DNA from: Arthrobacter sp. MYb229
Lineage (GTDB): Bacteria > Actinomycetota > Actinomycetes > Actinomycetales > Micrococcaceae
Length of the DNA stretch: 64,000 nt
Reading direction: 5' to 3'
Assembly: GCF_002975405.1 (NCBI RefSeq)
Contig: NZ_PCPS01000002.1
Coordinates: 310,001 to 374,000 of the forward strand
The notes under the pieces are model-generated. The model made no database searches. It had not been told where the DNA came from and saw only the letters and a program-made list of their open reading frames with translations. Positions 37,694 to 63,573 of this stretch are shown piece by piece (within the stretch, counting starts at the first letter, position 1; every line of letters begins with the position of its first letter). Position numbers and translations under genes: made by a program.

Positions 37694-37722
37694 CTTTGAA
37701 ATAGGTTTTGAAGGGAAATCCA

Positions 37723-38523
37723 GTGTCTTACACTCTGAACTGCTCGATTCTGCTCACCGAACTACCCATCAACCAGCGTGCCGAAGCGGCCAAGCAGGCG
37801 GGATTCGACAGCGTCGAATTCTGGTGGCCATTTGCCACCGCCGTGCCAAGCGACAAGCAGGTAGATGAGTTCGTTAGCTCGATCAAGAACGCGGGCGTGC
37901 AGCTGGACGGATTGAACTTCTTCGCCGGTGACATGCCTGCGGGGGACCGCGGACTAGTTTCCTGGGTCGGGCGCAGTGCAGAGTTCCGTGAGAACGTGGA
38001 CGTGGTCGCCGCTATCGGCGAGGCCACCGGATGCAAATCCTTCAACGCCCTCTATGGAAATCGTCTTGCGGAATCCACTGCGCAGGCTCAAGACGCGCTG
38101 GCCCTTGAAAACCTGTTGGTTGCCGCCGGGGGCATCGAACGCATCGAAGGCACCGTCCTGATCGAACCGGTCTCCGGCACCGAGGCCTACCCGCTGAAGA
38201 CCGCCGCCGAGGCACTGGACGTGGTCACTAAGGTCAAGGAAGCGGGCAAGAACAATATTGCCCTGCTGGCCGACTTCTACCACCTAGCGGTCAACGGCGA
38301 TGATGTCCCGCAGGTTATCGAAAGCCACGCGAAAGAATTCGGCCACATCCAGATCGCCGACGCGCCGGGCCGTGGGGCGCCAGGAACTGGTGATCTGCCC
38401 TTGCTTGCCTGGATTGAACGCTCCCGTCAGCTTGGATACACCGGCAAAGTAGCCCTGGAATACAAGCAGGACGCGCAGACCGCCTTTCAATGGCTTGCCA
38501 CCGCCGGTGCCGACGCCTCCTAA
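37723..38523 (+). CDS. hyi: Hydroxypyruvate isomerase
   Basis: A 266-residue TIM-barrel protein of the xylose-isomerase-like family: NCSILLTELPINQRAEAAKQAGFDSVEFWWPF at the start, FNALYGNR, LIEPVSG, LLADFYHLA and IQIADAPGRGAPGTG, all typical of Hyi. It interconverts hydroxypyruvate and tartronate semialdehyde. GTG 37723 is chosen, with GAAGGG before it. It is first in the run hyi-glxR-gcl. Confidence 0.9.
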   Translation: MSYTLNCSILLTELPINQRAEAAKQAGFDSVEFWWPFATAVPSDKQVDEFVSSIKNAGVQLDGLNFFAGDMPAGDRGLVSWVGRSAEFRENVDVVAAIGEATGCKSFNALYGNRLAESTAQAQDALALENLLVAAGGIERIEGTVLIEPVSGTEAYPLKTAAEALDVVTKVKEAGKNNIALLADFYHLAVNGDDVPQVIESHAKEFGHIQIADAPGRGAPGTGDLPLLAWIERSRQLGYTGKVALEYKQDAQTAFQWLATAGADAS

Positions 38524-38572
38524 ACTTCCACTCGCCCCTCGTGCGGGCCGCCAAAACACTTTGGAGAATCAC

Positions 38573-39457
38573 ATGTCACAGAATGTAGCTTTTATCGGTT
38601 TGGGAATCATGGGACTGCCCATGGCCAAGAACCTCGTCACCGCAGGCTTCAACGTCACCGGTTTCAACCGCAGTGAAAAAGCCACCACCGAGCTTGCGGC
38701 AGCCGGCGGCCACGCGGCAAAGTCGATCGCCGAAGCGGTCAAGGACGCCGACGTCATCATCACAATGGTTCCGGACTCTCCCGATGTCGAAGCGGTCACC
38801 ACCGGCGCAGAGGGCCTGTTCGCGCACGCAAAATCCGGGGCCATCTGGATCGATAATTCCTCCATCCGTCCCGACGTTGCGGTGAACCTTTCGAATGCCG
38901 CGCGTGAGGCCGGATTGCGTCCACTGGACGCGCCGGTATCCGGTGGCGAGCAGGGCGCCATCGACGCGGTGCTCTCCATTATGGTCGGCGGCGAACCGGC
39001 GGACTTCGCAGATGCCAAGCCGGTCCTCGAAGCGGTGGGCAAGACCATCGTCCTGGTCGGTCCCTCCGGATCCGGGCAAACCGTCAAGGCCGCAAACCAG
39101 CTGATCGTCGCGGCAAATATCCAGGCGCTGAGCGAAGCGGTGGTCTTCCTCGAAGCCTATGGCGTAGACACCGATTCGGCACTGAAGGTGCTCGGCGGGG
39201 GACTCGCCGGCTCCAAGGTGCTTGACCAGAAGGGCCAGAAGATCCTGGACCGTGAATTCGGACCGGGCTTCCGCTTGGCCCTGCACCACAAGGACATGGG
39301 CATCGTCACCTCGGCCGCCCGCGAAGCCGGCGTGGTGCTTCCGATGGGTTCGCTCGTCGCCCAGCTGGTGGGTTCCACCGTCGCCAGCGGCGACGGCTCG
39401 CTGGATCACTCGGGTCTCTTCCGCGGAGTGCAGCGCCTTTCGGGTCAAAGCGAGTAA
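38573..39457 (+). CDS. glxR: Tartronate semialdehyde reductase
   Basis: A 294-residue beta-hydroxyacid dehydrogenase: NAD(P) motif FIGLGIMGLPMAKNL (residues about 6-20), substrate motif DAPVSGGEQGA, catalytic lysine in KAANQLI. It reduces tartronate semialdehyde to glycerate. TTTGGAGAATC precedes ATG 38573; the frame upstream overlaps hyi and is not used. A 15-bp terminator follows. Confidence 0.92.
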   Translation: MSQNVAFIGLGIMGLPMAKNLVTAGFNVTGFNRSEKATTELAAAGGHAAKSIAEAVKDADVIITMVPDSPDVEAVTTGAEGLFAHAKSGAIWIDNSSIRPDVAVNLSNAAREAGLRPLDAPVSGGEQGAIDAVLSIMVGGEPADFADAKPVLEAVGKTIVLVGPSGSGQTVKAANQLIVAANIQALSEAVVFLEAYGVDTDSALKVLGGGLAGSKVLDQKGQKILDREFGPGFRLALHHKDMGIVTSAAREAGVVLPMGSLVAQLVGSTVASGDGSLDHSGLFRGVQRLSGQSE

Positions 39458-39523
39458 GTTTCTCTCCTGCTCTTCCCCTCAAACTTCCTGTGGCGGGTCC
39501 TGCGCCTGCCTTCGGTAGCCGGC

Positions 39524-39561
39524 CCATCGGCTGGCGAACAACTGTATTCGCCAGCCGATGG
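39524..39561 (+). terminator. Terminator after glxR
   Basis: Perfect 15-bp stem CCATCGGCTGGCGAA (39524-39538) / TTCGCCAGCCGATGG (39547-39561). It separates glxR from gcl, so gcl probably has its own promoter or is reached by readthrough. Confidence 0.75.
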
Positions 39562-39718
39562 AGTCCTTCGTTCCAGTTCGAGTCCGGCTTCCGGTGCTCG
39601 GGGTGGGCGTGAGGTCGATTCACTTCGTCGGCCCGCCACAGGTCATCCCCTCATAATCTTGTTTCTTCTTTCACCGCTCCATTCGGGGCCGAACCATCGA
39701 TAAGGATGTGTGATTTCA

Positions 39719-41512
39719 ATGCCTAAGATGCGCGCAGTAGATGCCATCGTGCTGATCCTGGAAAAGGAAGGCGCCACCGAAGCGTTCGGCTTGCCCGGCG
39801 CGGCAATCAACCCGCTGTACTCGGCGATGAAACAGCATGGCGGAATCCGCCATACGCTGCACCGCCACGTCGAGGGAGCCTCGCATGCAGCTGACGGCTA
39901 CTCGCGGGCCAGCGGCAAGATCGGCCTGTGCCTGGGTACCTCCGGGCCGGCCGGCACCGACATGATCACCGGCCTGTATGCGGCCATCGCCGACTCGATC
40001 CCGATGCTCTGCATCACCGGCCAGGCGCCAACCCACGTTTTGCACAAGGAAGACTTCCAGGCGGTGGATATTGAATCCATCGCGAAGCCGGTGACCAAAT
40101 ACGCGAGCACCGTGCTGGAGCCGGGGCTCGTTCCGGGAACCTTCGCCAAGGCTTTCCAGATCATGCGTTCGGGCCGCCCCGGTCCTGCGCTGATCGACTT
40201 GCCTATCAACGTGCAGTTGGCCGAGATTGATTTTGACATCGATGCCTACGAGCCGTTGGCGCCCACCAAGCCGGAGGCAACTCGCGGCCAGGCCGAGAAG
40301 ATCGTTGACCTGCTGCTGAGCGGCAAGCGTCCAATCATCGTTGCCGGCGGTGGCGTGATCAACGCCAACGCCAGCGACAAGCTCGTGCAGCTGGCCGAAG
40401 AGCTCAACATCCCGGTTTCGCCCACCCTGATGGGCTGGGGCGTCATTCCGGATGACCACCGTTTGCAGTCGGGCATGGTGGGCATCCAGACCCACACCAA
40501 ATACGGCAACGAATCCTTCTTGGCCTCGGATGTGGTGCTCGGCATCGGAAACCGGTGGGCGAACCGGCACACCGGTGGCCTCGAAACCTACCGTGCAGGG
40601 CGCAAGTTCATCCACGTGGATATCGAGCCCACGCAGATCGGTCGCGTTTTTGCGCCGGATCTGGGAATTACCTCGGATGCCGCGGCGGCGCTGGAATCAA
40701 TCCTGGAGATCGTGCGCGAACGCAAGAGCGCTGGGCTGATCCCCGACTACTCGCAGTGGGCCGACCAGTGCACGGCCCGCAAGGGAACGAACCACCGCAA
40801 GACCAACTTCGACAATATTCCGATCAAGCCGCAGCGCGTCTACCAGGAGATGAACGCGGTCTTCGGCCAGGACACCACCTACGTATCCACCATCGGGCTC
40901 AGCCAGATCGCCGGCGCGCAGATGCTGCACGTCTATGGACCACGCAAGTGGATCAACGCCGGCCAGGCCGGACCCTTGGGCTGGACCGGTCCGGCAGCCC
41001 TGGGCGTCGTGCGCGGCAAGCCAGGGGAAAAAGTTGTGGCGCTATCCGGGGATTACGACTTCCAATTCATGATTGAAGAGCTGGCAGTAGGCGCCCAGTT
41101 CAAGCTGCCTTACGTGCACGTGGTGGTCAACAACTCCTACCTCGGCCTGATCCGCCAATCGCAGCGTCCCTTCGAAATGGATTATCACGTCTCCCTGGGC
41201 TTCGATAACATCAACTCCCCGGAAACCGACGGCTACGGCGTGGACCACGTCAAGGTCGCCGAAGGGCTCGGATGCAAGGCCGTTCGGGTGAATGATCCGG
41301 CGAAGCTGGCCGAGGGATTCGCCGAAGCGAACCGGCTGGCCGACGAGCACCAGGTCCCCGTGGTGGTTGAAGTGATCCTGGAGAAGGTCACCAACATTTC
41401 CATGGGTGCGCAGCTGGATGCGGTTAATGAATTTGAAGATCTTGCACTGGAGATCGGGGACGCGCCTACCGCGCTAGTACCCATGAAATCCAGTGCCGGT
41501 GTGAGTGCCTGA
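39719..41512 (+). CDS. gcl: Glyoxylate carboligase
   Basis: A 597-residue thiamine-diphosphate enzyme nearly colinear with E. coli Gcl: [30 protein letters not shown] with V51 in place of the catalytic Glu of most ThDP enzymes (a known Gcl trait), [11 protein letters not shown], and GDYDFQF with the following NN as the ThDP/metal site. It joins two glyoxylates to tartronate semialdehyde and CO2. I choose ATG 39719, as in E. coli, with AAGGAT 11 bases before. Confidence 0.96.
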
Positions 41513-41553
41513 GGTCGGTCGTCGCTGCCACTGGCAACTCCCATAAATTGCGG

Positions 41554-41596
41554 GTGCGGTTATTTTCAAGATAGGAGATCATGGAAATAACCGCAC
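41554..41596 (+). promoter_or_regulatory. Hairpin overlapping a leader ORF before allB
   Basis: Twelve-bp stem GTGCGGTTATTT (41554-41565) / AAATAACCGCAC (41585-41596). The right arm lies inside a 15-codon ORF and the loop holds that ORF's ribosome site and start. No T-run follows, so this looks like a regulatory structure rather than a plain terminator. Confidence 0.45.
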
Positions 41597-41628
41597 CACG
41601 CACTACTGAATTTAGTCTCAAGCTTTAA
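41581..41628 (+). CDS. Possible 15-residue leader peptide before allB
   Basis: ATG 41581 is preceded by TAGGAGATC and opens MEITAPRTTEFSLKL followed by TAA, ending 23 bases before allB. The ribosome site spacing is short. The overlap with the hairpin at 41554-41596 would let translation open or close the structure. It is weak evidence for an attenuator-like leader. Confidence 0.35.
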   Translation: MEITAPRTTEFSLKL

Positions 41629-41651
41629 ACGTAACGAGTAGGGAACGACTC

Positions 41652-43031
41652 ATGAGCATCAACGAAGCTGTTGAACGCGAAACCAACGACAACGCAGATC
41701 TGGACTTCAATCTGGTTATCCGGGGCGAACGCATCTTGACTACCGCCGGCATGGCCGCCCGCGAGATCGGCGTCCGCGACGGAAAGATCGTAGCCATCGA
41801 GCCGCTGGGAAATAATCTGCAGGGCGCACGCACCATAGAGGTCGGCGACGACGAGGTATTGCTCCCGGGCCTGGTGGATACCCACGTCCACGTCAACGAG
41901 CCGGGGCGTACCGAGTGGGAAGGCTTCGAGTCTGCCACCAAGGCCGCAGCGGCAGGCGGTGTCACCACGATCGTGGACATGCCGCTGAACTCCATCCCGC
42001 CCACGGTGAACCTCGAAGCACTGGAAATCAAGCGCGAAGCTGCCAGCAAGAACGCGTATGTCAATGTCGGCTTCTGGGGCGGCGCCATTCCGGGTAACAA
42101 GAAGGACTTGCGTCAGCTGCACGAAGCCGGCGTCTTCGGCTTCAAGTGCTTCCTGCTTCACTCCGGAGTCGACGAGTTCCCCTCGCTGACCGTCGACGAG
42201 ATGGAAGAGGACATGGCAGAGCTTGCCTCCTTCGATTCGCTGATGATCGTGCACGCCGAGGACTCGGACATCATCGATAATTCGCCGAATCCTGTCGGCG
42301 GACAGTACGCCGGATTCCTGAACTCGCGTCCGCGTGATGCGGAGAATACCGCCATTGCGCAGGTCATCGAGCGCGCCCGCAAGACCGGGGTACGCGCCCA
42401 CGTGCTGCACCTGTCCAGCTCGGATGCCCTGGAGATGATCCGCGAGGCCCGCGCCGAAGGCGTGAAGCTCACCGTGGAAACCTGCCCGCACTATCTGACG
42501 CTGCTCGCCGAGGACATCCCGGACGGCGCCACGGCCTTCAAATGCTGCCCGCCGATCCGCGAGAACGACAACCGCGAACTGCTGTGGAAGGGCCTGGAAG
42601 AAGGCATTATCGACTGCATCGTTTCGGACCACTCCCCGTCCACTGTCGATTTGAAGGACGTGGAGAATGGCGACTTCGGCGTCGCCTGGGGCGGCGTCGC
42701 CTCGCTGCAGCTGGGCCTGCCGCTGATCTGGTCCGAAGCCAAGGGGCGCGGGCTGAAGCTGGAGCAGGTGGTGCAATGGATGGGCGTGAATCCTTCCAAG
42801 CTTGCCGGGCTGAGCGCCAAGGGCGGCATCGAGACCGGCAAGGACGCGGATTTCGCGATCTTCGCTCCGGAGGACACCTTCGAGGTGGATGTGGCCAAGC
42901 TGCATCACAAGAACCCGATTTCCCCGTACCAGGGCAAGACCCTGAGTGGCGTGGTCCGCCGGTCGATCATCGCGGGGGCCGACGTGGACTTCCAGACTCC
43001 TGGCGGAAAGCTGATCCGCCGCGAGCACTAG
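41652..43031 (+). CDS. allB: Allantoinase
   Basis: A 459-residue cyclic amidohydrolase: LPGLVDTHVHVNEPGRTEWEGFESATKAAAAGG (metal H-x-H and AllB-typical NEPGRTEWEG), KCFLLHSGVDEFP for the carboxylated lysine region, HAEDSDI, HVLHLSS and SDHSPS as further metal ligands. It opens allantoin to allantoate. TAGGGAACG precedes the ATG. It follows gcl by 139 bases containing a leader ORF and hairpin. Confidence 0.95.
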   Translation: MSINEAVERETNDNADLDFNLVIRGERILTTAGMAAREIGVRDGKIVAIEPLGNNLQGARTIEVGDDEVLLPGLVDTHVHVNEPGRTEWEGFESATKAAAAGGVTTIVDMPLNSIPPTVNLEALEIKREAASKNAYVNVGFWGGAIPGNKKDLRQLHEAGVFGFKCFLLHSGVDEFPSLTVDEMEEDMAELASFDSLMIVHAEDSDIIDNSPNPVGGQYAGFLNSRPRDAENTAIAQVIERARKTGVRAHVLHLSSSDALEMIREARAEGVKLTVETCPHYLTLLAEDIPDGATAFKCCPPIRENDNRELLWKGLEEGIIDCIVSDHSPSTVDLKDVENGDFGVAWGGVASLQLGLPLIWSEAKGRGLKLEQVVQWMGVNPSKLAGLSAKGGIETGKDADFAIFAPEDTFEVDVAKLHHKNPISPYQGKTLSGVVRRSIIAGADVDFQTPGGKLIRREH

Positions 43032-44660: not shown

Positions 44661-44859
44661 ACTGGAGCAATAAAGAGCAACCACTGGTTGGGATCTGTTG
44701 AGATCCTGTGAATATCGGAACGGATGGTCTGTTTGGAGCCCCTTGGTCCTTCTCGGTGATAGGGTCTACAAATATTAACTGGATAAGTGCGAGGTTTTGA
44801 AAAATCCGCCGGGGTGAATTCGGTTAGTGGACGCATCGTTTTCGAAGTATGGGGACTTT

Positions 44860-47205
44860 ATGGCAATTGATTCGGGAGCCGAAATTGCGGGGGCTAGCGA
44901 TTCGGAACTGATTCAGGGCGCACGCGTTGGAAGCCGGGTGTGCCAAGAGCGGCTGTACCAGCGCCACAAGCAAGTTGCGCTGGCAGTTGCCTATCGGCAT
45001 ACCGATAATCCGTCTGAAGCAGAGGATATTGTGTCCGAAGCTTTTTTGAGAGTTTTCGCAAGCCTCAAGCATGGGTCCGGGCCGACCGAATTCTTCCGCG
45101 CGTATCTGTTGACCTCGGTTTCCAGGGAGGCCTTCTCTAGAAACAGAGCTGCGCGGCGTGAAGCCGACATCGATGAGATCGCAGAGTTCGCGAGTGAAAC
45201 CCCGGATGCTGACGAAGTCATGCGGCGCGCCGAATCAAAGATCGTTATCCGCGCTTTCAAATCGCTGCCGGAGCGATGGCGTGCAGTTTTGTGGCATAAC
45301 GAAGTCGATGGGCTTCCTCCCCGCGAGATCGCGACGATTCTTGGTATCACTCCCAACGCAGCGTCTGCGTTGGCCGTTAGAGCCCGTGAGGGGCTACGTG
45401 AGTCTTACCTTGCTGCCCACCTCAAAGAACATGCAGGCCTCGTTGCCGACTGCGCGTCTGCGCGCAAGCAGCTTCCCGCGTTTATTCGAAATAACTTGAG
45501 TCCCAAGGCCACTCGATCCCTGAAGTCGCACCTTAAGAATTGCCCAGACTGTTCGCTTGTTTACGGCGAGCTTAAAAACATCGGCGCGCCCATGCGCAGC
45601 GTGGTGCTGCCATTGTTCGTTGGGGGAACCACTGTCTTAGGTATTTCAGCGTCAGGGGGACTGGCGCAACTCGGCGGCGGAATTACCGCCGCTACTGGTG
45701 GTTCCTCGGTTGCAGTATCGACTGCCGGTTCCGGGGCTGCAGCTGTGGTGACGGGAACCGTGAGTGCTTCGGCAGTTGCAGCTGGAGTGGGAGCTGGCCT
45801 AGCTGCGCTGGCGGTGGCCGCTTCAGCGGTCGGTATTTTGACGCCACTATTTGACGACCGTTCAACAGCACCCGTTGCATTGCCTCAGGAGCGGTCCGTT
45901 GAACAAGAGCCGGATAATGTAGATCCGATCGATGCGCCCTCCGCATTGGAGGACATCCTCATGGATCTCGTGTCATTTGAGTCCGCCACACCTGAATCGG
46001 AGGGCCGGGAGGGGCTGGACGACAGCCAAATGCGCTTGCCTCTGCAGAGCCCCGAGGGCCAGCGATCGGATCTCCCCGATAACGCCATTGCTGACTATCC
46101 TTTGAATTTGGGTAGTCCGGGCACTCCTACAATGCCTCCTGTAGAAGAAGCGTCCGATCTTCCGGCTTCTGCGCCTACGGTTGAACCAACGCCGGAGCCT
46201 ACGGTTGAGCCGACGGTGGAGCCTTCGCCGGAACCTACGGTCGAGCCTTCGCCGGAACCTACGGTCGAGCCTTCGCCGGAACCTACGGTCGAGCCTTCGC
46301 CGGAACCTACGGTCGAGCCTTCGCCGGAACCTACGGTCGAGCCTTCGCCGGAACCTACGGTCGAGCCTTCGCCGGAACCTACGGTCGAGCCTTCGCTGGA
46401 ACCTACATCGGAACCAACGCCAGTGCCTACGGTTGAGCCGACGGTGGAGCCTTCGCCGGAACCTACACCGGAACCTACACCGGAACCTACACCGGAGCCT
46501 ACGGTTGAGCCTTCACCGGAACCTACGGTCGAGCCGACCGTGGATCCTTCGTCGGAACCTACACCGGAACCTACACCGGAGCCTACGGTCGAGCCTTCGC
46601 TTGAACCTACGGTCGAGCCGACTGTGGAGCCTTCGTCGGAACCTACACCGGAACCTACACCGGAGCCTACGGTCGAGCCTTCCCCTGAACCAACGCTGGA
46701 GCCTATGGTCGAGCCTTCCCCTGAACCAACGCTGGAACCAACGCTGGAGCCGACGGTCGAGCCGACTGTGGAGCCTTCGTCGGAGCCTACGGATGAACCA
46801 ACGTCGGAACCTACCGTTGAGCCGACACCGGATCCATCCGAAGAACCGGTCGATCCAGAAGAACCCGAATCGACATCGAGTTTTGACGTGTCGGTTGAAC
46901 GAATTAGCGACCGCTTCCTACTGCAGTACGTTTTCACCGTCGACCCTGGAGCTGTAGCGCCCGGAGAGACCTTTGAGTTCAGCATGAAAATGGACCGCCG
47001 CTACTGGGGTTGGGCTAGCTTCGGACAGAACTGCTCGTCGAGTTCACGGTACTCGCAGCAGATGAACGTTGAATGCGTGGTCTCCGAGGACAGCCCTGTA
47101 AAACTGACGATCACGGTTCTACATGGACGCGGCAAGCTGGGTGTCCTTTTCGCGCAACCCGGAGCACCTGGATCAGGGGTCGAATTCGCTGTCCCTCGGC
47201 AGTAG
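44860..47205 (+). CDS. ECF sigma factor fused to ZAS zinc motif, membrane segment and PEPTVEPS stalk
   Basis: A 781-residue multi-part protein. Residues about 14-190 are an ECF sigma factor: region 2 ([38 protein letters not shown]) and region 4 ([41 protein letters not shown]). Residues about 195-240 carry C198 and the ZAS anti-sigma signature H224-x3-C228-x2-C231. A Gly/Ala-rich hydrophobic stretch (about 246-331) follows, then a linker, a 230-residue Pro-Glu-Thr repeat stalk (about 439-671), and a C-terminal beta-rich-looking domain (673-781) with two cysteines. This is a sigma/anti-sigma one-component design, with the tail presumably outside the cell. I choose ATG 44860, with GGGGAC upstream, over GTG 44827. 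Confidence 0.85.
46171..46860 (+). repeat. Coding tandem repeats, 24-bp PEPTVEPS units
   Basis: The stalk is encoded by tandem repeats. Seven identical 24-base units containing GGAACCTACGGTCGAG run from about 46228 to 46396; the flanks are diverged units with EPT, EPS and VEPT variants. The length is a multiple of 24, so copy number can change without a frameshift. Confidence 0.85.
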
Positions 47206-47697: not shown

Positions 47698-48321
47698 ATG
47701 ATCTCCAATGAAACAATCACCAGCTACCTTGAACGGCTCGCTTCTAAGGCGCCTACTCCGGGGGGAGGTGCTGCCGCGGCCTTGCACGCCGCCCAGGGCG
47801 CCGCGCTGGTGTCCATGGTTGCCGAGTTTACCTCCGGACCGCGATTCCGAGAGGTCGAGGACAAAGCTCAGCCGATCGCCAAACACGCACGCGTACTGAT
47901 GCGTTCGGCGCTGTTCGAGGCGCAGGAAGACGAACGATTGTTCGGGGCCTTAGGCGATGCATACAGGATGCCCAAGGAGGATGAAGAGCAGCAGGCAGCG
48001 CGCACCGCGGCCATACAAAGCGCCACCATTGCCGCGGCCGCACCGTTGGTCTCAACCGTTGAATCCTCCGCGGTGGTCATTGAGCTCGCCCAGCGTTTGG
48101 TCGAGATCGGAAACCGATCGGTGATCAGCGATGTGGCTGCAGCCGCCGAAGCGGCGCGAGCCGCCCTGGGTACCGCGCTGGTGACGCTGGAAATGAATAT
48201 TGCGGCAATACAGGAAGCCGAACAGCGCGAACGCTTGAGCCTCGTGGCCAGCCAAGCCGCCGACGCGATCGTGGCGGCAGAAGCACTCAGCGCGCAGGTC
48301 CGCTTGGTGGTGGCTGCATGA
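47698..48321 (+). CDS. fchA: FchA-like methenyl-THF cyclohydrolase / cyclodeaminase family
   Basis: A 207-residue single-domain protein of the formiminotransferase-cyclodeaminase C-terminal family: NETITSYLERLASKAPTPGGG, AAQGAALVSMV and a helical rest (VIELAQRLVEIGNRSVISD). The length and N-terminus closely match FchA, the methenyl-THF cyclohydrolase of methylotrophs, as well as cyclodeaminase. No formiminotransferase domain is attached. It is translationally coupled to a FolD paralogue (ATGA, 48318-48321) that lacks the cyclohydrolase lysine, so I favour the cyclohydrolase role over deamination. The symbol reflects that inference. Confidence 0.78.
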   Translation: MISNETITSYLERLASKAPTPGGGAAAALHAAQGAALVSMVAEFTSGPRFREVEDKAQPIAKHARVLMRSALFEAQEDERLFGALGDAYRMPKEDEEQQAARTAAIQSATIAAAAPLVSTVESSAVVIELAQRLVEIGNRSVISDVAAAAEAARAALGTALVTLEMNIAAIQEAEQRERLSLVASQAADAIVAAEALSAQVRLVVAA

Positions 48322-49205
48322 CCGCGCAACGCCTCGCCGGACAGCCGGTGGCCGCAGCCATCCGTGAACGCACCGGCCAACTCGTTTCGCGGCTGGCGAG
48401 CGAAGGGATCACCGCCCGGGTGGCGGTGGTGCTCGCAACCGACAACGAGGCAACGTCCTGGTATGTGCGCTCCATTGAACGCGCCGCCGAACGGCTCGGA
48501 GTTCACTGCCAGGTGCTCGACTTGGCCACCGGCACCCAGTCGGAGATTGCCCAAGCGATCCGGGCCTTGAACGCAGACGAGACGGTGCACGGCATCATTC
48601 TGCAGACGCCGCTGCCCGAATCGGTTGACCCGGCCTCCCTGGTGCAGCTGATTGACCCGGCCAAGGATATTGATGGAGCCAACCCGCTGAGCCTGGGCAG
48701 GCTCAGCGTGGGCCAGCCGGCCTTTGCGCCGGCTACGGCACGTTCGGTCATCGAAATCCTCGAACACTATCAAGTCCCACTCGCCGGAGAGCACGTTGCG
48801 GTGGTGGGCCGTTCCGCGGTGGTGGGCAAACCGCTCGCCCAGCTCTTGCTGCAGCGCGACGCAACGGTGAGCATCTGCCATTCTCGAACCACCAATCTCG
48901 CCGAGATTACCAGGGGCGCGGCGGTGACCGTTGTGGCGGTTGGCCGGGCGAACCTGCTTACCGGCAACGAGGTCAGCGATTCGTCGGTAGTCATCGATGT
49001 GGGCACCAATGTCACCGAGGATGGCCAGCTGGTAGGCGATGTTCACGCGGAGTCGGTGCAGCCACTGGTCCGGGCGATGAGCCCGGTGCCCGGGGGAGTA
49101 GGCACGGTAACCACCGCCCTGTTGATCCTGCACGCAACGCAGGCGGCGCTAGCCGCCCTTGAAAATGCCGCATCGAAAGGAGCTCCCATGGCCGGACGCC
49201 GGTAG
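48318..49205 (+). CDS. folD: FolD paralogue, methylene-THF dehydrogenase probably lacking cyclohydrolase
   Basis: A 295-residue FolD-family protein with the Rossmann half intact: VVGRSAVVGKPLAQLL, CHSRTTNL, VAVGRANLLTGNEV, and VPGGVGTVTTALL. In the substrate site Y49 (SWYVRS), Q96 (LQTPLP) and D119 (KDIDGANP) are present, but the position of the catalytic lysine (E. coli K54, YVASKRKA) is isoleucine I53 (YVRSIERA). In human and E. coli enzymes that lysine is needed for cyclohydrolase but not for dehydrogenase activity. The housekeeping FolD is presumably elsewhere. Confidence 0.88.
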   Translation: MTAQRLAGQPVAAAIRERTGQLVSRLASEGITARVAVVLATDNEATSWYVRSIERAAERLGVHCQVLDLATGTQSEIAQAIRALNADETVHGIILQTPLPESVDPASLVQLIDPAKDIDGANPLSLGRLSVGQPAFAPATARSVIEILEHYQVPLAGEHVAVVGRSAVVGKPLAQLLLQRDATVSICHSRTTNLAEITRGAAVTVVAVGRANLLTGNEVSDSSVVIDVGTNVTEDGQLVGDVHAESVQPLVRAMSPVPGGVGTVTTALLILHATQAALAALENAASKGAPMAGRR

Positions 49206-49642: not shown

Positions 49643-50515
49643 TCAATGGTTGGGCCCAGTTGATGAAGAATGGGGGTTAGAAGTGGTAGATGGGGCGTGA
49701 TCGATCTGGGCGATGAATTCGTTGACCCATTGAACGGCGGAGATGACATCAGCGGCTACGTTGAGTCCATTTGCTGCTTCGGCATAGAGGGATTCCCAGT
49801 CGGTTTCTTCAACCGCTACAGGTGGCCAAGGGTGCGCTTTGCGGTAAGTGAAGAGTCGGACGCAGGTTGATCGTACTTGCGTGAGATCTAGTTGCTCTTG
49901 GGTGCCCAGCAGCTGAAGGTCTACGAGGTCCCGGGCTCGGTCACTTCCAGGAGCGGTAGATGCATGGATTTTCTGGGCGATTTGATGATCTGCTGGCATT
50001 ACCGGCACAGGAGCTGGGGATGGTAAGCCGAGAGAAGTGAACATGTCGATAAGGTTCTCAGCAAGAACCAGTACGGGGTGTTCCGCGTCGCCGATTTCAT
50101 TGTGGCCCAGTTCAAAGGGGACGGTGCACCATGCTTTACCCTTGTAGTCGAGCTTGACGTCGAAGGGTTTCATTACATAGGAAGCCGGGACTCCTGCGGG
50201 TTTCAGTTGCTTCTTTTCAACAAGACGTCCGGTGAAGCCCTCCCATCCTTCTAGGAGGCGATCTGCGAAATCATCGCGGAACTTTGCCAGTCCACTGGCC
50301 CGTGCGGCGTCGAGGTCACGCGTGAATCGTGTTCCAGTGCCATATCGCAATGCCATAGCACTTCCACCTTTTACGGATCCTCCGGGGAGCATTTGCCCGA
50401 CAATGACCAGTGCCATGGAGGTGCGTCGCCGGGTGACTAAGCTTTCCTCACCTTCTAAGTTTCTAATGCGCTGGTTGAGCGCTGTGAGATTTGCGGGTGG
50501 GGTTGGATACTTCAT
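49643..50515 (-). CDS. AbiEii-type nucleotidyltransferase toxin
   Basis: A 290-residue protein with the AbiEii/AbiGii nucleotidyltransferase core: KGGSAMALRYGTGTRFTRDLD, giving the GGS (50-52) and D67-x-D69 metal motif, and a downstream K in AQKIHA. Such toxins add nucleotides to targets such as tRNA and can abort phage infection. It overlaps the antitoxin gene by four bases (50512-50515). Lower GC content and codon use differ from neighbours, suggesting acquisition. Its tail is low-complexity (Ser/Thr/Pro/Asn). Confidence 0.87.
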   Translation of the reverse strand: MKYPTPPANLTALNQRIRNLEGEESLVTRRRTSMALVIVGQMLPGGSVKGGSAMALRYGTGTRFTRDLDAARASGLAKFRDDFADRLLEGWEGFTGRLVEKKQLKPAGVPASYVMKPFDVKLDYKGKAWCTVPFELGHNEIGDAEHPVLVLAENLIDMFTSLGLPSPAPVPVMPADHQIAQKIHASTAPGSDRARDLVDLQLLGTQEQLDLTQVRSTCVRLFTYRKAHPWPPVAVEETDWESLYAEAANGLNVAADVISAVQWVNEFIAQIDHAPSTTSNPHSSSTGPNH

Positions 50516-51048
50516 ACGGAAAGTTCCTTACGTACCTGGCGCCATTCTGCAGAGGTGAGAAGTCCTTCGGCGCGGGCCCTGGTCGCGGCGTCTCGTAGTC
50601 GTGATGCGGGTACTTGTCCGCGGCATTCAATGAGGGCTTCGGCAACCCGTTGCGCCGGAATCCCCTGATAGTGAGTCACTTTTGTGTCTACGGAAGCTCG
50701 AACGAGATTTATATAGCTAGGCATGGCTCGACGTACGCGATGGGTTGTACCAACTGTAATCTTTCGAGGGTTCACATCCGCCAGGCCCAGGAGGGCAAGG
50801 ACAGTTTCTCCTCGCAGGTGGGAATCGGCGCCCGCCCGCAAGGTGGCTTCCGCGAACTGATCGTGGTCAGTTGGTGGAATGTCGGTGACCCGGTAAAGGC
50901 GGTACCCGGTGTGTTCCAAACCGCCTCGGGCGGCAAGTTTTGGCAGCTCCACCGCCGGCACACCAGCGTCGGTGGCGCCGGTGACAGTGACGTAGCCATA
51001 GTTGTCGTAGGCGATCTCTCGCAAGATGTCTCTATAGCTTTGCTTCAT
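50512..51048 (-). CDS. AbiEi-type antitoxin (type IV)
   Basis: A 178-residue partner with an N-terminal winged helix (DILREIAYDNYGYVTVTGATDAGVPAVELPKLAARGGLEHTGYRLYRV) and an AbiEi-like C-terminal part. In type IV systems AbiEi neutralises the toxin without forming a stable complex and represses its own promoter. The promoter region has a dyad, TTATAC-N8-GTATAA, covering the -10 element, matching autoregulation. The mRNA looks leaderless. Confidence 0.85.
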   Translation of the reverse strand: MKQSYRDILREIAYDNYGYVTVTGATDAGVPAVELPKLAARGGLEHTGYRLYRVTDIPPTDHDQFAEATLRAGADSHLRGETVLALLGLADVNPRKITVGTTHRVRRAMPSYINLVRASVDTKVTHYQGIPAQRVAEALIECRGQVPASRLRDAATRARAEGLLTSAEWRQVRKELSV

Positions 51049-51468: not shown

Positions 51469-55447
<3,979 letters not shown>

Positions 55448-55451
<4 letters not shown>

Positions 55452-56752
55452 GCCAGGTGCTCCAAAACGCGCTGCGTGTACCAGTTGATGAATGCTTCGA
55501 CCTGGTATTCGCTCTTCATGTACGGGCCGGGTTCGTAGGCGGGGCTGTTGGCTCCGGACTGGCAGAGCTCGACAAAGGCCTTGTCCTGCAGATTCGTCTG
55601 CTTCCAGGTGTGGGTGAGCGTCTCCAGATCGTAGTCGTCGCCCTCCACGGCGTCGTCGGCCACGAGCCAGGTGGTGCGGACCAGGGTCTGGTGCTCGTTA
55701 ATAGGGAAGGCCGCGAAGGTGATCACGTGGTCGGACTGGAAATGGAACCAGCTATTGGGCTGCAGGTGCATGGAGCAGCGGCCCAAGCGGAAGTCGCGCA
55801 GCTCACCCAGCAGCTTCTTCGAGAGCCGGTGCCCGTCGGCGGAGAAGGACTCTCCGTCGCCATCCAGGGATTCGCGGGAAATGCGGATCCCCGCGACGCG
55901 GGTGTCCAGCTCCTCGACGACTTCGTAGGGGATCCCGTAGCGGCGGCAGCGCTCTTCCAGCCCGGCTTGGGCTTTCTGATTGCGTTCCCAGACTTCTTCG
56001 AGATGCGTGGGCACGGTCTCGTCGGTCAGGCCCCAGGTGGGGAACAGCGAACAGGCTAGTTCCGGGTGGCCATCGCAGTGGTAGCACTCGCGGTTGTTCT
56101 CCATCACCAGCTTCCAGTTGCCCTCTTCGATGATGTTCTGCTGGTAGGCGACCTTGGCGCGGGAAATATCATGCGGCGCCAGGTAGGGTTCGAAAATTTC
56201 GGCGACCTGGTCAAAATCGGCAGGTGGTTCCTTGGCCAGGGACACGAAGATCAGCCCGGCGTGGATCCGGCCGTGGGCGCGTTTGAGCGCAAAGCAATTC
56301 TTGTCAAAGGTTCCCTCGCCCGGAGCCGAGGCGTGGATCAAGTTGCCCTCCGGGGAATAGGTCCACGAGTGATAGCCGCACACCAGGTTGCCGGTGCTGC
56401 CCGAAGCTTCGGTCAGCACGCGGGCTCCGCGGTGCCGGCACACGTTGTGCAGCACATTGACGCCACCGTCATCGGTGCGCAAAACGATCAGCGAATGCGG
56501 ACCGTAGTCGAGGGTGACGTAGTCTCCGCCCTCCGGGATTTCGGCAACGCTGGCGGCAAAGAGCCAGTGGGTTCCGAAGATTGCCTGCATTTCGACCTTG
56601 AATACCGCAGGATCCGTGTACAACGGAGCCTCAAGCGAGTAGCCCTTGCGCCGATTCTGAAAGAGTTCGGTAATCTCGGCGAGTTGTTCATCGCTCACCG
56701 TTGAGGCGAGCTTGCCACGCGTCGAGTGCGGAGTGCTTACCGAAGCGGTCAT
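55448..56752 (-). CDS. gbcA: Glycine betaine monooxygenase oxygenase component (Rieske)
   Basis: A 434-residue Rieske oxygenase: C105-R-H107 and C125-x2-H128 bind the 2Fe-2S cluster, and NNRECYHCDGHPE (H225, H229) binds the mononuclear iron. The CNTA/GbcA-type sequence and the operon with gbcB and dmg indicate glycine betaine N-demethylation to dimethylglycine and formaldehyde. It is divergent from a LysR regulator gene. Confidence 0.9.
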
Positions 56753-57975: not shown

Positions 57976-59190
57976 ATGGGCAACTTGGCAGTAAGCTACG
58001 CCGGCGCAGGCAAGGTCGAACTCATCGATTCGCCGTATCCGGAATTCGAATTGAAGGACGGCCCGGGAGTCCACCCGGCAAACATTGGCCGCCAGGTCCA
58101 CCACGGCGTCATCCTGCGCACCATCGCCACCAACATCTGCGGCTCCGACCAGCATATGGTCCGTGGCCGCACCACTGCCCCGGAGGGCCTTGTGCTGGGC
58201 CACGAGATCACCGGAGAAGTGATCGAAGTCGGCCGCGACGTGGAATTCCTCAAGGTGGGGGACATCGTTTCGGTGCCCTTCAACATCTCCTGCGGCCGCT
58301 GCCGCAACTGCAAGGTCGGACAGACCGGCATCTGCTTGAACGTCAACCCGGACCGTCCGGGTTCCGCCTACGGCTACGTGGACATGGGCGGATGGGTCGG
58401 CGGGCAAGCCGAATACGTGCTGGTTCCATACGCAGACTGGAACGCGCTGAAATTCCCGGACCGAGACCAGGCCATGGAGAAGATCCTTGACCTGACAATG
58501 CTTTCGGACATCTTCCCCACCGGCTACCACGGAGCCATTGGCGCCGGGGTAACCGTCGGATCGACCGTATATGTCGCCGGCGCCGGTCCCGTGGGCCTGG
58601 CGGCGGCCACCTCGGCACAATTGCTCGGCGCGGCAACCGTCATCGTCGCGGATCTCAACGCAGACCGGCTAGCGCAAGCGCGCAGCTTCGGATGCGAGAC
58701 GGTGGACGTCTCGCTCGGTGATCCGGGCGAGCAGATCGCACAGATCCTGGGCACGCCCGAGGTCGACTGCGGCATCGACGCCGTCGGCTTCGAGGCGCGC
58801 GGACACGGGCACGACGCCGGCAAGGAGCAGCCGGCCACCGTGCTGAACTCGCTCATGGAGATCACCCGGGCCGGCGGCAGCCTCGGCATCCCCGGGTTGT
58901 ATGTCACGGGAGATCCCGGAGCCAGCGACGAAGCGGCCAAGCGGGGCTCGCTTTCCATGCGCTTTGGGCTAGGTTTTGCCAAGTCCCATACCTTCGTCAC
59001 CGGCCAGTGCCCGGCGATGAAGTACAACCGAGGGTTGATGCAGGCGATTCTCTCGGACAAGGTTTCGATCGCCAAAAACGTCAATGCGACCGCCATCCCG
59101 TTGACCGACGCGCCCAAGGGATACGCGGCCTTCGACGAGGGCGCGGCGCAGAAGTTCGTGCTCGACCCGCACGGCCTGATCGGCGCTTAG
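57976..59190 (+). CDS. fdhA: Glutathione-independent formaldehyde dehydrogenase
   Basis: A 404-residue zinc alcohol dehydrogenase-family protein of the Pseudomonas-type formaldehyde dehydrogenase class: catalytic zinc residues in NICGSDQHM and GHEITGEV, structural zinc in CGRCRNCKVGQTGIC, NAD site GAGPVGLAAA. It oxidises formaldehyde to formate with tightly bound NAD and without glutathione. Formaldehyde released by GbcAB makes it part of the betaine pathway. AAGGGAAAGG precedes the ATG. Confidence 0.92.
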   Translation: MGNLAVSYAGAGKVELIDSPYPEFELKDGPGVHPANIGRQVHHGVILRTIATNICGSDQHMVRGRTTAPEGLVLGHEITGEVIEVGRDVEFLKVGDIVSVPFNISCGRCRNCKVGQTGICLNVNPDRPGSAYGYVDMGGWVGGQAEYVLVPYADWNALKFPDRDQAMEKILDLTMLSDIFPTGYHGAIGAGVTVGSTVYVAGAGPVGLAAATSAQLLGAATVIVADLNADRLAQARSFGCETVDVSLGDPGEQIAQILGTPEVDCGIDAVGFEARGHGHDAGKEQPATVLNSLMEITRAGGSLGIPGLYVTGDPGASDEAAKRGSLSMRFGLGFAKSHTFVTGQCPAMKYNRGLMQAILSDKVSIAKNVNATAIPLTDAPKGYAAFDEGAAQKFVLDPHGLIGA

Positions 59191-59310: not shown

Positions 59311-59423
59311 GCCTTTAATATAACCGAGCAACGACTTTGTTGCGCCCGTTTTCCGGTTGCGGGCAGGCCAAGCCGAGGAACCATCGCGGTAGGCCGTCAT
59401 GTTCCACCATCAAAGGAAAATCT

Positions 59424-61322
59424 ATGAATCGCAATGATCAACCAGTTCAAGATCTAGTCAGCGAGCTGCATTCGGCTCGCCGGCGCAGGCCGCGGAAATA
59501 TCCGTCGGGCGGGACCGACTATTGGGTTTTTGGAATTGCCGGCGCCCTGGCGCTGGCGTTCATCGCTTGGGGATTTTCCTCGCCGACCGGTCTGGGAAAC
59601 ACCGCGGGTAAGGCCTTGGACTGGGTGATCACGAATACCGGATGGATGTTCGTGATTGCGGCTACCGTCTTCACCATATTCGTGCTGGTTGTGGCGGCCA
59701 AGAACTTTGGGCGCATCCCGCTGGGCAAAGATGGCGAAAAGCCGCAATTCAGCACCATTTCCTGGATTTCCATGATGTTTGCCACCGGCATGGGCATCGG
59801 CCTGGTGTTCTACGGTGTAGGCGAACCATTGTTCTTCTACATGTCTCCTCCGCCGGGAACGGTGGAGGGCCAAAGCGCCGCGGCCGTCGGCACCGCCATG
59901 GGCACCACGCTGTTCCACTGGACGCTCTTCCCCTGGGCCATGTATGCGATTGTCGGCTTGGGCATGGCCTATGGAAGCTTCCGCTTGGGGCGGCCGCAGC
60001 TGTTCTCTGCGATGTTCAGCTCAATCTTTGGCGAGCGGGTGGTCAACGGCTGGGGTGGCAAGACGATTAACATCTTGGCCATCCTGGCGACGCTTTTCGG
60101 GTCGGCTTGCTCGTTGGGACTCGGTGCGCTGCAAATCGGCGGCGGAATACAGTCGGCCGGACTCCTGCCGACCGTGGGCTCCGGAGTTCTGGTTCTGATC
60201 ATCGCGGTTCTCACCGCCTTGTTCGTCGGTTCGGCGGTTTCCGGCATTGAGCGCGGAATTCAATGGCTTTCGAATATCAACATGATTCTTGCGGTCATCC
60301 TCGCGCTTATCGTATTCATCGGTGGGCCAACGTTGTTCATCTTGAACGTGATTCCAAACGCGGTGGGATCCTTTATCAGCGATCTGCCTGAAATGGCTTC
60401 GCGCACGGCCTCTTCCGGCGACGGAACCATGGCCACCTGGCTGTCGTCCTGGACCATCTTCTACTGGGCCTGGTGGGTTTCATGGACCCCGTTCGTCGGT
60501 CTCTTCATTGCCCGCATCTCGCGCGGCCGCAGCATCCGGCAATTTGTCACCGGCGTGCTGCTGGTGCCGTCCACGGTGACGTTGATCTGGTTCGCCATCT
60601 TCGGCGGCGGAGCGATCGGCCTGCAGGAGCGGGCGGAACGTTCCGGAGACATGGGCCAAGCCATGGCGCAGATGGTGGATGGGGTGCCGAATATCAACTT
60701 CAATTCGGTACTTTTCGATCTGCTTGGAAGCTTGCCCTTCCCCGCATGGTTTGGCACGGCGCTCATAGCGTTGACCGTGGTGCTGATCGCGATCTTCTTC
60801 GTCACCGGAGCCGACTCGGCCTCCATCGTCATGGGTGCGCTGAGCGAACGCGGTGCCGAGGAGCCGTCCAAGAAGTCGGTGATTTTCTGGGGTGTTTCGG
60901 TTGGTGCGGTGGCCGCGGTCATGCTGCTTGCCGGCGGGGACCACCCGGCTGCGGCCTTGAACGGGTTGAAGAACATCACCATCGTCTCGGCGCTGCCGTT
61001 CGTGCTGGTGATGCTGCTACTCTGCGTGGCGATTTGGAAGGATCTGAGCAAGGATCCCCTGGTGCTGCGGGGCAGGGTTGCGCTCGAAGTCCTCGAACAG
61101 GCCGTAGACGATGGGATTGATCGGCACGATGGAGAGCAGTTCTGCCTGATGACCACCGAGCAGGCAATCGTGACGGTGCAGAATGCGCCCTTGAACGGTG
61201 AAGCGAAGGACGCTTTTGTAGATTTGGACGAGGAGTACGTTGCGGAGTTGGGCTCCCCGAATGGCATGCCCGATTCCCTTGGCTCCGACGGGGATCTGGA
61301 AACCGAAAAGGCAACCAAATAA
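59424..61322 (+). CDS. BCCT-family betaine/choline/carnitine transporter
   Basis: A 632-residue twelve-helix transporter: GMGIGLVFYGVGEPLFF, and the substrate-site helix FYWAWWVSWTPFVGLFIARISRGRSIRQF (tryptophan box), both BCCT hallmarks. It has a charged N-terminus and a long acidic C-terminal tail. It imports glycine betaine or choline with Na+ or H+, feeding GbcAB. AAAGGAAAA precedes ATG 59424; the frame upstream is not used. It converges on the gntR gene. Confidence 0.92.
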   Translation: MNRNDQPVQDLVSELHSARRRRPRKYPSGGTDYWVFGIAGALALAFIAWGFSSPTGLGNTAGKALDWVITNTGWMFVIAATVFTIFVLVVAAKNFGRIPLGKDGEKPQFSTISWISMMFATGMGIGLVFYGVGEPLFFYMSPPPGTVEGQSAAAVGTAMGTTLFHWTLFPWAMYAIVGLGMAYGSFRLGRPQLFSAMFSSIFGERVVNGWGGKTINILAILATLFGSACSLGLGALQIGGGIQSAGLLPTVGSGVLVLIIAVLTALFVGSAVSGIERGIQWLSNINMILAVILALIVFIGGPTLFILNVIPNAVGSFISDLPEMASRTASSGDGTMATWLSSWTIFYWAWWVSWTPFVGLFIARISRGRSIRQFVTGVLLVPSTVTLIWFAIFGGGAIGLQERAERSGDMGQAMAQMVDGVPNINFNSVLFDLLGSLPFPAWFGTALIALTVVLIAIFFVTGADSASIVMGALSERGAEEPSKKSVIFWGVSVGAVAAVMLLAGGDHPAAALNGLKNITIVSALPFVLVMLLLCVAIWKDLSKDPLVLRGRVALEVLEQAVDDGIDRHDGEQFCLMTTEQAIVTVQNAPLNGEAKDAFVDLDEEYVAELGSPNGMPDSLGSDGDLETEKATK

Positions 61323-62089: not shown

Positions 62090-62700
62090 CAAAGGGTATC
62101 GCTCGAGTGCCAATCGGTCACTTCCTCAGAGCTGCGGAAGAGTCGTTGTGGGCTAGGTGCGAGCAGCTCGCTCACCGAAGCGGCGCCAGTTGGAAGGTGA
62201 GGCCGATCCGCGCTTCCGCCACAGGCGGCCCTGCAAGCCAAGCAGATACGCTCGTTTGCCTAGGGGTTCTAGGATTCTCGGGGTTTCAGAATCGGTTGAT
62301 TCAGCGGTTTTCGGGACAATAAAAAATCCCCTTAGATTCTTATTGACGCTGTGATGCAGCGAACATAGACTTGTGATCAGCTATTGATATATCAGGGATG
62401 GGGGTCCGGGATTGAGCTGTCGATTGCCGAAGTTGAAACGCAGAATACAACCTCCGCATTCGGAACGGGTCTTGGGCCCGTGCGGGATGCAGGCATTGGC
62501 TAAACCCCTAATCTAAATCTTTGCCCACAGCAGCGATACCCTGTTTGGGAGGGGTGCGGAACTTCTGGCATTGGTGAGCTAATGCTAGAAGAGGGGCGTG
62601 GTTGATCAACACAGCGCAGGCGTAGACCACATCGATTCCCCACGAAATGTACGAGGCATGACGGGACACTGTCATCTCGGTGAACCAAAGGAGCGGCAAA
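62072..62700. other. Long intergenic region gntR-purU
   Basis: About 630 bases without a supported gene. It contains a TGATATATCA palindrome (62385-62394), an 11-bp stem (62562-62572 / 62581-62591) and a strong purU ribosome site AAAGGAG. A transcribed leader is possible; I saw no known riboswitch consensus. Confidence 0.5.
62384..62395. promoter_or_regulatory. TGATATATCA palindrome upstream of purU
   Basis: TTGATATATCAG contains a perfect 10-base palindrome and the ATATCAG half of the shared motif, about 305 bases before purU. Confidence 0.35.
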
Positions 62701-63573
62701 ATGACCGAACTGAACAATAAATATGTCTTGACCCTCACCTGCGCAGAGCGCCCGGGGATTGTCCATGCCGTGACCGGTCTGCTGTTGAAGCACCACGGGG
62801 ACATCCGGGAACTGAAGCAGCATGATGACCAGCGTTCTGGAACGTTGTTCATGCGCATTGAGTTCGAAGTGTCCCAAACTTCCAACGTTTCTGCCGAAAT
62901 TGCCGAATTGGAGTCAAGTCTGACCGATCTGGCGACAGAGCACGACGCTACTTGGGGCCTGCGGGCCTCGGGCAAGAAGAAGCGCGTGGTGATCATGGTG
63001 TCAAAGTTCGGTCACTGCCTGCATGACCTGTTGTTCCGCGCACGCATGGGGGAACTGCCGGTCGAGATCGCAGCGGTCGTCTCCAACCACCCGGATCACC
63101 GGCAGCAGGTGGAATGGAACGGAATACCGTTCTTCCACGTACCGGTCACCGCCGAGACCAAGCCGGAGGCAGAGGCCCGGCTCATGGAGCTCGTTGACCG
63201 TTTCGACGTGGATTTGGTGGTGCTCGCCAGGTACATGCAGGTCCTCTCCGATGATCTCACCCGGCAGCTCACCGGGCGCGCGATCAACATCCACCATTCA
63301 TTCCTCCCGTCCTTCAAGGGGGCCAAGCCGTATCACCAGGCCTTTGAGCGTGGCGTAAAGACCGTGGGCGCGACGGCGCACTACGTGAACAGCGAATTGG
63401 ATGAGGGGCCGATCATTGCCCAGCAGGTCCAAAACGTTGATCACAGCTACGGGCCCGAGGATCTTGTTGCTGCAGGTCGGGATACCGAATGCAAGGCGCT
63501 ATCGGACGCGGTGCGATGGCACTGTGAAGACCGGATTTTCCTCAACGGTTCACGGACCGTGGTGCTGCGCTAG
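62701..63573 (+). CDS. purU: Formyltetrahydrofolate deformylase
   Basis: A 290-residue PurU: an ACT domain at the N-terminus (about 6-75, YVLTLTCAERPGIVHAVTG) and a formyltransferase-type hydrolase domain with MVSKFGHCLHDLL, ARYMQVLS, NIHHSFLPSFKGAKPYHQAF (catalytic N and H) and DEGPIIAQQ (catalytic D). It hydrolyses 10-formyl-THF to THF and formate, recycling folate for dimethylglycine oxidase. AAAGGAG lies before ATG 62701. Confidence 0.95.
   Translation: MTELNNKYVLTLTCAERPGIVHAVTGLLLKHHGDIRELKQHDDQRSGTLFMRIEFEVSQTSNVSAEIAELESSLTDLATEHDATWGLRASGKKKRVVIMVSKFGHCLHDLLFRARMGELPVEIAAVVSNHPDHRQQVEWNGIPFFHVPVTAETKPEAEARLMELVDRFDVDLVVLARYMQVLSDDLTRQLTGRAINIHHSFLPSFKGAKPYHQAFERGVKTVGATAHYVNSELDEGPIIAQQVQNVDHSYGPEDLVAAGRDTECKALSDAVRWHCEDRIFLNGSRTVVLR

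Follow-up and report, generated by a model that had tools for sequence, protein, structure and literature searches.

This study examined 64,000 nucleotides of DNA from Arthrobacter sp. MYb229, the whole stretch of which is referred to here as the window. An fchA-like gene and a folD paralogue were found side by side on the forward strand where the first-pass annotation had placed them (Table 1). The two reading frames share an ATGA stop/start, and we infer that their translation is coupled. The window also carries a dimethylglycine oxidase (DMGO)-type gene, the start of which was picked at MSQTSPRV, as well as a Rieske oxygenase and a flavin/2Fe-2S reductase, which are probably GbcA-like and GbcB-like, respectively.

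Table 1. Genes and sequence features of the window discussed in the text (THF, tetrahydrofolate)
Feature	Position	Strand	Remarks
fchA-like gene	47698..48321	+	FTCD_C family protein of 207 aa; putative 5,10-methenyl-THF cyclohydrolase
folD paralogue	48318..49205	+	295 aa; putative 5,10-methylene-THF dehydrogenase lacking cyclohydrolase activity
ATGA shared by the fchA stop and the folD start	48318..48321	+	putative translational coupling
ATT codon for I53 (K54 in E. coli FolD)	48474..48476	+	YVRSIERA versus YVASKRKA
DMGO-type gene	51469..53988	-	DAO, FAO_M, GCV_T and GCV_T_C domains; likely source of methylene-THF
Flavin/2Fe-2S reductase	54060..55451	-	probably partner of betaine demethylase
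Rieske oxygenase	55448..56752	-	probably betaine demethylase
Zinc alcohol/formaldehyde-dehydrogenase-like gene	57976..59190	+	same cluster
BCCT betaine/choline/carnitine-family transporter	59337..61322	+	
purU, 10-formyl-THF hydrolase	62680..63573	+	ACT and Formyl_trans_N domains

The fchA-folD pair runs toward the oppositely oriented DMGO gene, from which it is separated by an AbiEii/AbiEi-type toxin-antitoxin pair (49643-51048, reverse strand), and purU is 13.5 kb distant; these genes therefore do not form a single operon in the window. Two further observations concern the preceding part of the window. A forward-strand gene at 44827-47205 encodes a protein of 792 residues with regions 2 and 4 of an ECF-type sigma factor and a zf-HC2 zinc finger, which ends in a long repeat tail, unusual in appearance, and a C-terminal stretch. 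An allantoin/glyoxylate-type cluster occupies 37708-43031 on the same strand and comprises isomerase-like, reductase-like, carboligase-like and amidohydrolase genes, named from inspection or, for the amidohydrolase, from a domain search.

The 295-residue protein has the two-domain FolD fold (THF_DHG_CYH, PF00763, 99.1 bits; THF_DHG_CYH_C, PF02882, 180.7 bits) and is 35% identical to E. coli FolD. In the alignment, the site columns Y50, K54, Q98 and D121 of the E. coli enzyme correspond to Y49, I53, Q96 and D119. The catalytic lysine of the YxxxK motif is thus missing from a motif that aligns without gaps, while the other three residues are kept, which confirms the residue assignments made in the first-pass annotation. 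Lysine mutants of the FolD family keep the dehydrogenase activity. None of the NCBIfam models (best 25 of 33) reached its cut-off, the best score being 257 bits against the 445 required by the FolD equivalog. The AlphaFold model of the paralogue (mean pLDDT 90.7) was compared with known structures, as had been suggested, and its top PDB matches were FolD/MTHFD structures.

The 207-residue protein consists of one stand-alone FTCD_C domain, which scores above the Pfam cut-off (154.9 bits). The first-pass annotation regarded it as closely resembling FchA, which is somewhat strong, although its predicted fold is most like an FchA. The AlphaFold model (mean pLDDT 90.0) has as its best PDB match the FchA of Methylobacterium extorquens (7vg4, TM 0.91, about 36% identity), ahead of the cyclodeaminases 1tt9 and 1o5h (TM 0.80-0.84), and the predicted fold is thus closer to FchA than to cyclodeaminases. 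At the sequence level, identity to M. extorquens FchA is 36.6% over 191 residues, the score against the NCBIfam FchA equivalog NF045657 falls below the cut-off (135.5 versus 275 bits), and three formiminotransferase-linked FTCD_C members are 31-33% identical to the protein. A tree of FTCD_C sequences neither joins the window FchA to proven FchA nor separates FchA from cyclodeaminase.

Only two FolDs were found in the source genome by PF00763. The second (G000:C20:139830-140702) has the lysine (YVGGKHK) and is 33% identical to the paralogue, the nearest named relatives of which are from Glutamicibacter and Arthrobacter strains. Going by these relatives, the source organism is probably a Glutamicibacter. 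One formate-THF ligase is also present (C12:267248-268903). As a normal, lysine-bearing FolD has been kept, the fchA-folD pair is an extra module, and the proposal that it replaces a bifunctional enzyme does not hold for this genome.

A survey of the family, which the first-pass annotation had suggested for the Micrococcaceae, identified a full-length paralogue of the window clade (bits over 220) in 43 of 295 genomes, including the source genome. The lysine is missing in all 43 (38 isoleucine, 5 leucine) and fchA adjoins folD at every one of these loci, with a four-base overlap (-4) in 40; loss of the lysine and an adjacent fchA thus co-occur throughout. At a 44th locus (G229), the contig end falls before the lysine position. 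Each of a further 20 FolDs retrieved from the family, 18 of them from paralogue-bearing genomes, retains the lysine. Homologues of FchA, with E at most 3.4e-22, are also present in 34 of the 295 genomes in the absence of a lysine-less FolD of the window clade, and the 16 FolDs fetched from such genomes all have the lysine. FchA therefore does not require a lysine-less partner, and the dependence seems to be one-way. No FolD was found near six stand-alone FchA loci, five in paralogue-free genomes and one in the pair-bearing genome G163. Among the stand-alone Micrococcaceae homologues (L067-L072), one tested case adjoins a gene with an AlaDh/PNT domain.

The best 80 loci from named genomes, which partly represent the same strains as the family set, include representatives of Arthrobacter, Glutamicibacter, Kocuria, Streptomyces, Kitasatospora, Nocardiopsis, Geodermatophilus and Amycolatopsis, and A. 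globiformis NBRC 12137 (L129) has the fchA-folD pair. The lysine is missing in all 80 (79 isoleucine, 1 leucine), and 78 of them have an fchA upstream in the same orientation, once at a distance of 504 bases; the remaining two loci end at contig ends. Since every clade member of the family and all 80 of these loci lack the lysine, and the 20 other family FolDs have it, I53 is neither a sequencing error nor a matter of chance. The clade-wide isoleucine/leucine state likewise excludes a private loss in one strain and, together with the ungapped motif, an error of sequencing or alignment. A lysine-less FolD with isoleucine, annotated as bifunctional, was also observed, outside these 80 loci, on the Paenarthrobacter conjugative plasmid pYJN5-2 (L270:8001-8882), where no fchA was found within 8 kb on the plasmid, the replicon covered by the search.

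The gene order among these 80 loci bears on the route from DMGO through the pair to PurU that had been proposed from the window. At 53 loci, purU, the DMGO gene, fchA and folD follow one another in one direction (gene order only, irrespective of gaps), and four more have the order DMGO-fchA-folD-purU. Ten loci, some with short flanks, carry only fchA and folD among the five genes sought, and the other 13 show different arrangements or cut ends. Judging by this order, the relatives mostly carry purU and the DMGO gene together with fchA-folD in what appears to be one operon, which supports the proposed route; the window itself departs from this arrangement.

Across the phylum, 396 genomes were searched with both the FolD paralogue and FchA. 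All 50 FchA-linked FolDs outside the window clade, which belong to other actinobacterial lineages, lack the lysine (20 valine, 28 alanine, 2 isoleucine), and 49 of them have also lost Q98; as these 50 loci were picked for FchA, they speak for the rule that a linked FolD has no lysine and not for its frequency. Conversely, no fchA was found next to any of 44 lysine-bearing FolDs whose flanks were inspected, namely 26 from the phylum and 16 second FolDs from paralogue-bearing genomes (all 16 with the lysine), for which about 1.2-1.5 kb was examined, and two from catabolic operons. Seven of the genomes that these 26 phylum FolDs come from have an FchA-like match elsewhere, and ten further FchA-like loci of the phylum have no FolD within the stretch examined. 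FTCD_C genes adjoin a formiminotransferase at two loci and are likely, from this context, to encode true cyclodeaminases; in four other genomes, whose FTCD_C genes are unlinked, the FolDs fetched carry the lysine. A Fisher test of the association was set aside because it ignores relatedness and because some of the loci had been selected for a linked FchA.

Two side observations concern other actinobacterial families. In the FchA-linked FolDs of L272-L300, K54 is replaced by alanine (in one case by isoleucine) and Q98 by phenylalanine, leucine or methionine. At L316-L319, from another family, a second, lysine-less FolD has D121 replaced by glutamate, and nearby genes encode FchA-like proteins and formate-THF ligase, the latter checked with Pfam in L318.

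With regard to the history of the site, a tree of 82 FolDs built without two site columns places the 27 window-clade rows in one group (SH-aLRT 99), and the lysine-less rows form two groups. A single lysine-less clade is nevertheless compatible with the data and fits slightly better (p-AU 0.53), for which reason repeated independent losses were dropped as an explanation. The lysine-less sets also have departures in common at positions 99 and 266 of E. coli FolD. On this phylogeny the absence of the lysine is old and clade-wide and has been kept through deep divergence, so that the term "lost" used in the first-pass annotation is correct as to the absence and misleading if read as a recent event. 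The loss was perhaps a single event, and since the lysine-less FolDs possibly form one clade, the co-occurrence of lysine absence and fchA may rest on one old event.

Four genomes (G528, G343, Kitasatospora humi G692 and the metagenome-assembled genome G701) were found to have a lysine-less FolD as their single PF00763 match, and genome searches gave no formate-THF ligase match in any of them. In K. humi and G701, both of which are without completeness rating, fchA adjoins folD. G528 and G343, which belong to one genus and are rated 100% complete, have leucine in place of the lysine; no fchA occurs within the 20 kb around their folD, and each has an fchA elsewhere in the genome that groups with the window-type linked FchAs in the FTCD_C tree. 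From this gene content, 10-formyl-THF in the four genomes should come from the lysine-less FolD together with FchA. With such a FolD alone and no ligase match, FchA must therefore supply the cyclohydrolase, unless spontaneous hydrolysis suffices, and the prediction that follows is that FchA is essential there for 10-formyl-THF.

The observed gene layout, residue state, co-occurrence, gene order in relatives and predicted folds make it very probable that the two genes encode a FolD divided between two proteins, a lysine-less dehydrogenase and FchA, which are dedicated to betaine and dimethylglycine catabolism. The FolD paralogue would oxidise 5,10-methylene-THF to 5,10-methenyl-THF with NAD(P)+ and, having no site lysine, would be unable to hydrolyse methenyl-THF efficiently. 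The putatively co-translated FchA would then open methenyl-THF to 10-formyl-THF, from which PurU would release formate and regenerate THF. In this manner, the module would draw off the methylene-THF that DMGO produces as betaine is broken down. The first-pass annotation had offered the same reading of a split FolD/FchA module, and comparative genomics and the four genomes in which no other route was seen support it well. The pair is real and conserved and, as far as its sequence and context can tell, is well explained as such a module for N-methyl oxidation.

The pair could instead run reductively with formate-THF ligase, converting formate to methylene-THF for glycine and serine synthesis. 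The ligase is indeed present in the source genome, in another actinobacterium (L318), where it lies next to a lysine-less FolD and an FchA-like gene, and in all five genomes queried that have FchA-linked FolDs of the alanine type. We nevertheless regard this direction as unlikely, as the conserved neighbours PurU and DMGO drain and make these folates oxidatively and six genomes with the pair of the clade gave no ligase match.

It is rather improbable that the FolD paralogue is still bifunctional by way of another residue or a water chain, with FchA serving only as a booster. The excerpted text of PMC3338484 describes the lysine as the general acid/base of hydrolysis, whereas that of PMC9173628 doubts how far it acts as a catalyst as opposed to a binding residue and could not assign the base to it. 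The tyrosine, glutamine and aspartate of the site are intact, and in the family genomes with FchA and no lysine-less FolD of the clade, the 16 FolDs fetched have the lysine, so that a boosting role or some other function is all that is left for FchA there. Against this stand the 26 phylum FolDs and 16 second FolDs that all have the lysine and no neighbouring fchA, the 50 FchA-linked FolDs that all lack it, nearly always together with Q98, and the two unlinked lysine-less cases, G528 and G343, which still hold an fchA. That the 207-residue protein acts as a formimino-THF cyclodeaminase in the degradation of histidine or purines and lies next to folD by chance is most improbable, since its Pfam family, its score under the FchA cut-off and the near-equal similarity of formiminotransferase-linked members and proven FchA are outweighed by the absence of any formiminotransferase (PF02971) match and of a second FTCD_C match in the source genome, by the conserved coupling to a lysine-less FolD, by the formiminotransferase neighbours of the candidate cyclodeaminases and by a predicted fold nearest FchA.

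Returning to the two-protein version of FolD, we tentatively suggest, as a possibility that is open to considerable doubt, that a deep subfamily of lysine-less FolDs depends on FchA and forms a second, obligate two-component route of C1 oxidation across the Actinomycetota, which would be the sole route to 10-formyl-THF in some genomes. In betaine degraders, DMGO and PurU would join it in a coupled sequence leading from N-methyl groups to formate, in which the splitting of the two steps would let methenyl-THF pass between separate proteins. The best-matching annotation models are named bifunctional, although their cut-offs are unmet, and the pYJN5-2 relative, the one annotated lysine-less relative inspected, carries this very label; on lysine-less FolDs, such labels lead to wrong reaction assignments in metabolic models. 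These FolDs further allow the contested function of the lysine in FolD/MTHFD to be studied in a natural experiment.

Among the literature matches listed, from which subscription papers are mostly absent, no report of an fchA-folD pair in Arthrobacter, Actinobacteria or betaine catabolism was found, and the excerpts of PMC2991359, PMC3534580 and PMC3691474, on Arthrobacter and betaine/sarcosine catabolism, mention no FchA with FolD. The Arthrobacter dimethylglycine/sarcosine clusters of Meskys et al. 2001 represent the same pathway and family. The excerpts of PMC3584212 report that in acetate oxidisers both fchA and folD lie close to fhs, and those of PMC7219735 cite the work on FolD and FchA of Clostridium perfringens.

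Several known systems resemble the module in part. The nicotine operon of the pAO1 type (methylaminobutyrate oxidase, FolD, PurU) follows the same logic, in that methylene-THF from an oxidase is converted to formate, and its FolD is described as bifunctional in PMC6214936. The pNtRootA4 operon (FAD amine oxidase-folD-purU) and the Paracoccus sox-folD-purU operon both have a FolD with the lysine; the 12.8 kb examined of the former contain no fchA, and none lies near the latter. The bifunctional FolD of E. coli shares its fold and the tyrosine, glutamine and aspartate of the site with the paralogue, which has isoleucine in place of the catalytic lysine. M. extorquens likewise separates the dehydrogenase (MtdA) from FchA; MtdA, however, is not known to be a FolD, whereas the dehydrogenase of the window is a FolD-fold protein.

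The closest parallel is C. perfringens, in which FolD reportedly has one activity and FchA supplies the other. Aluri et al. in 2016 reportedly found its FolD to be a monofunctional dehydrogenase and both genes to be needed to replace E. coli folD. The window combines a FolD without the site lysine with an FchA in the same genome. C. perfringens is a Firmicute in which the two proteins have a housekeeping role alongside Fhs, whereas here the module is an additional, catabolic one, which is near betaine genes in a genome that also has a normal FolD. A split FolD/FchA is already known from C. perfringens, and what the module of the window and its relatives add is the breadth of its distribution, its catabolic dedication, the genomes in which it is the sole route and the bifunctional label given to its FolD.
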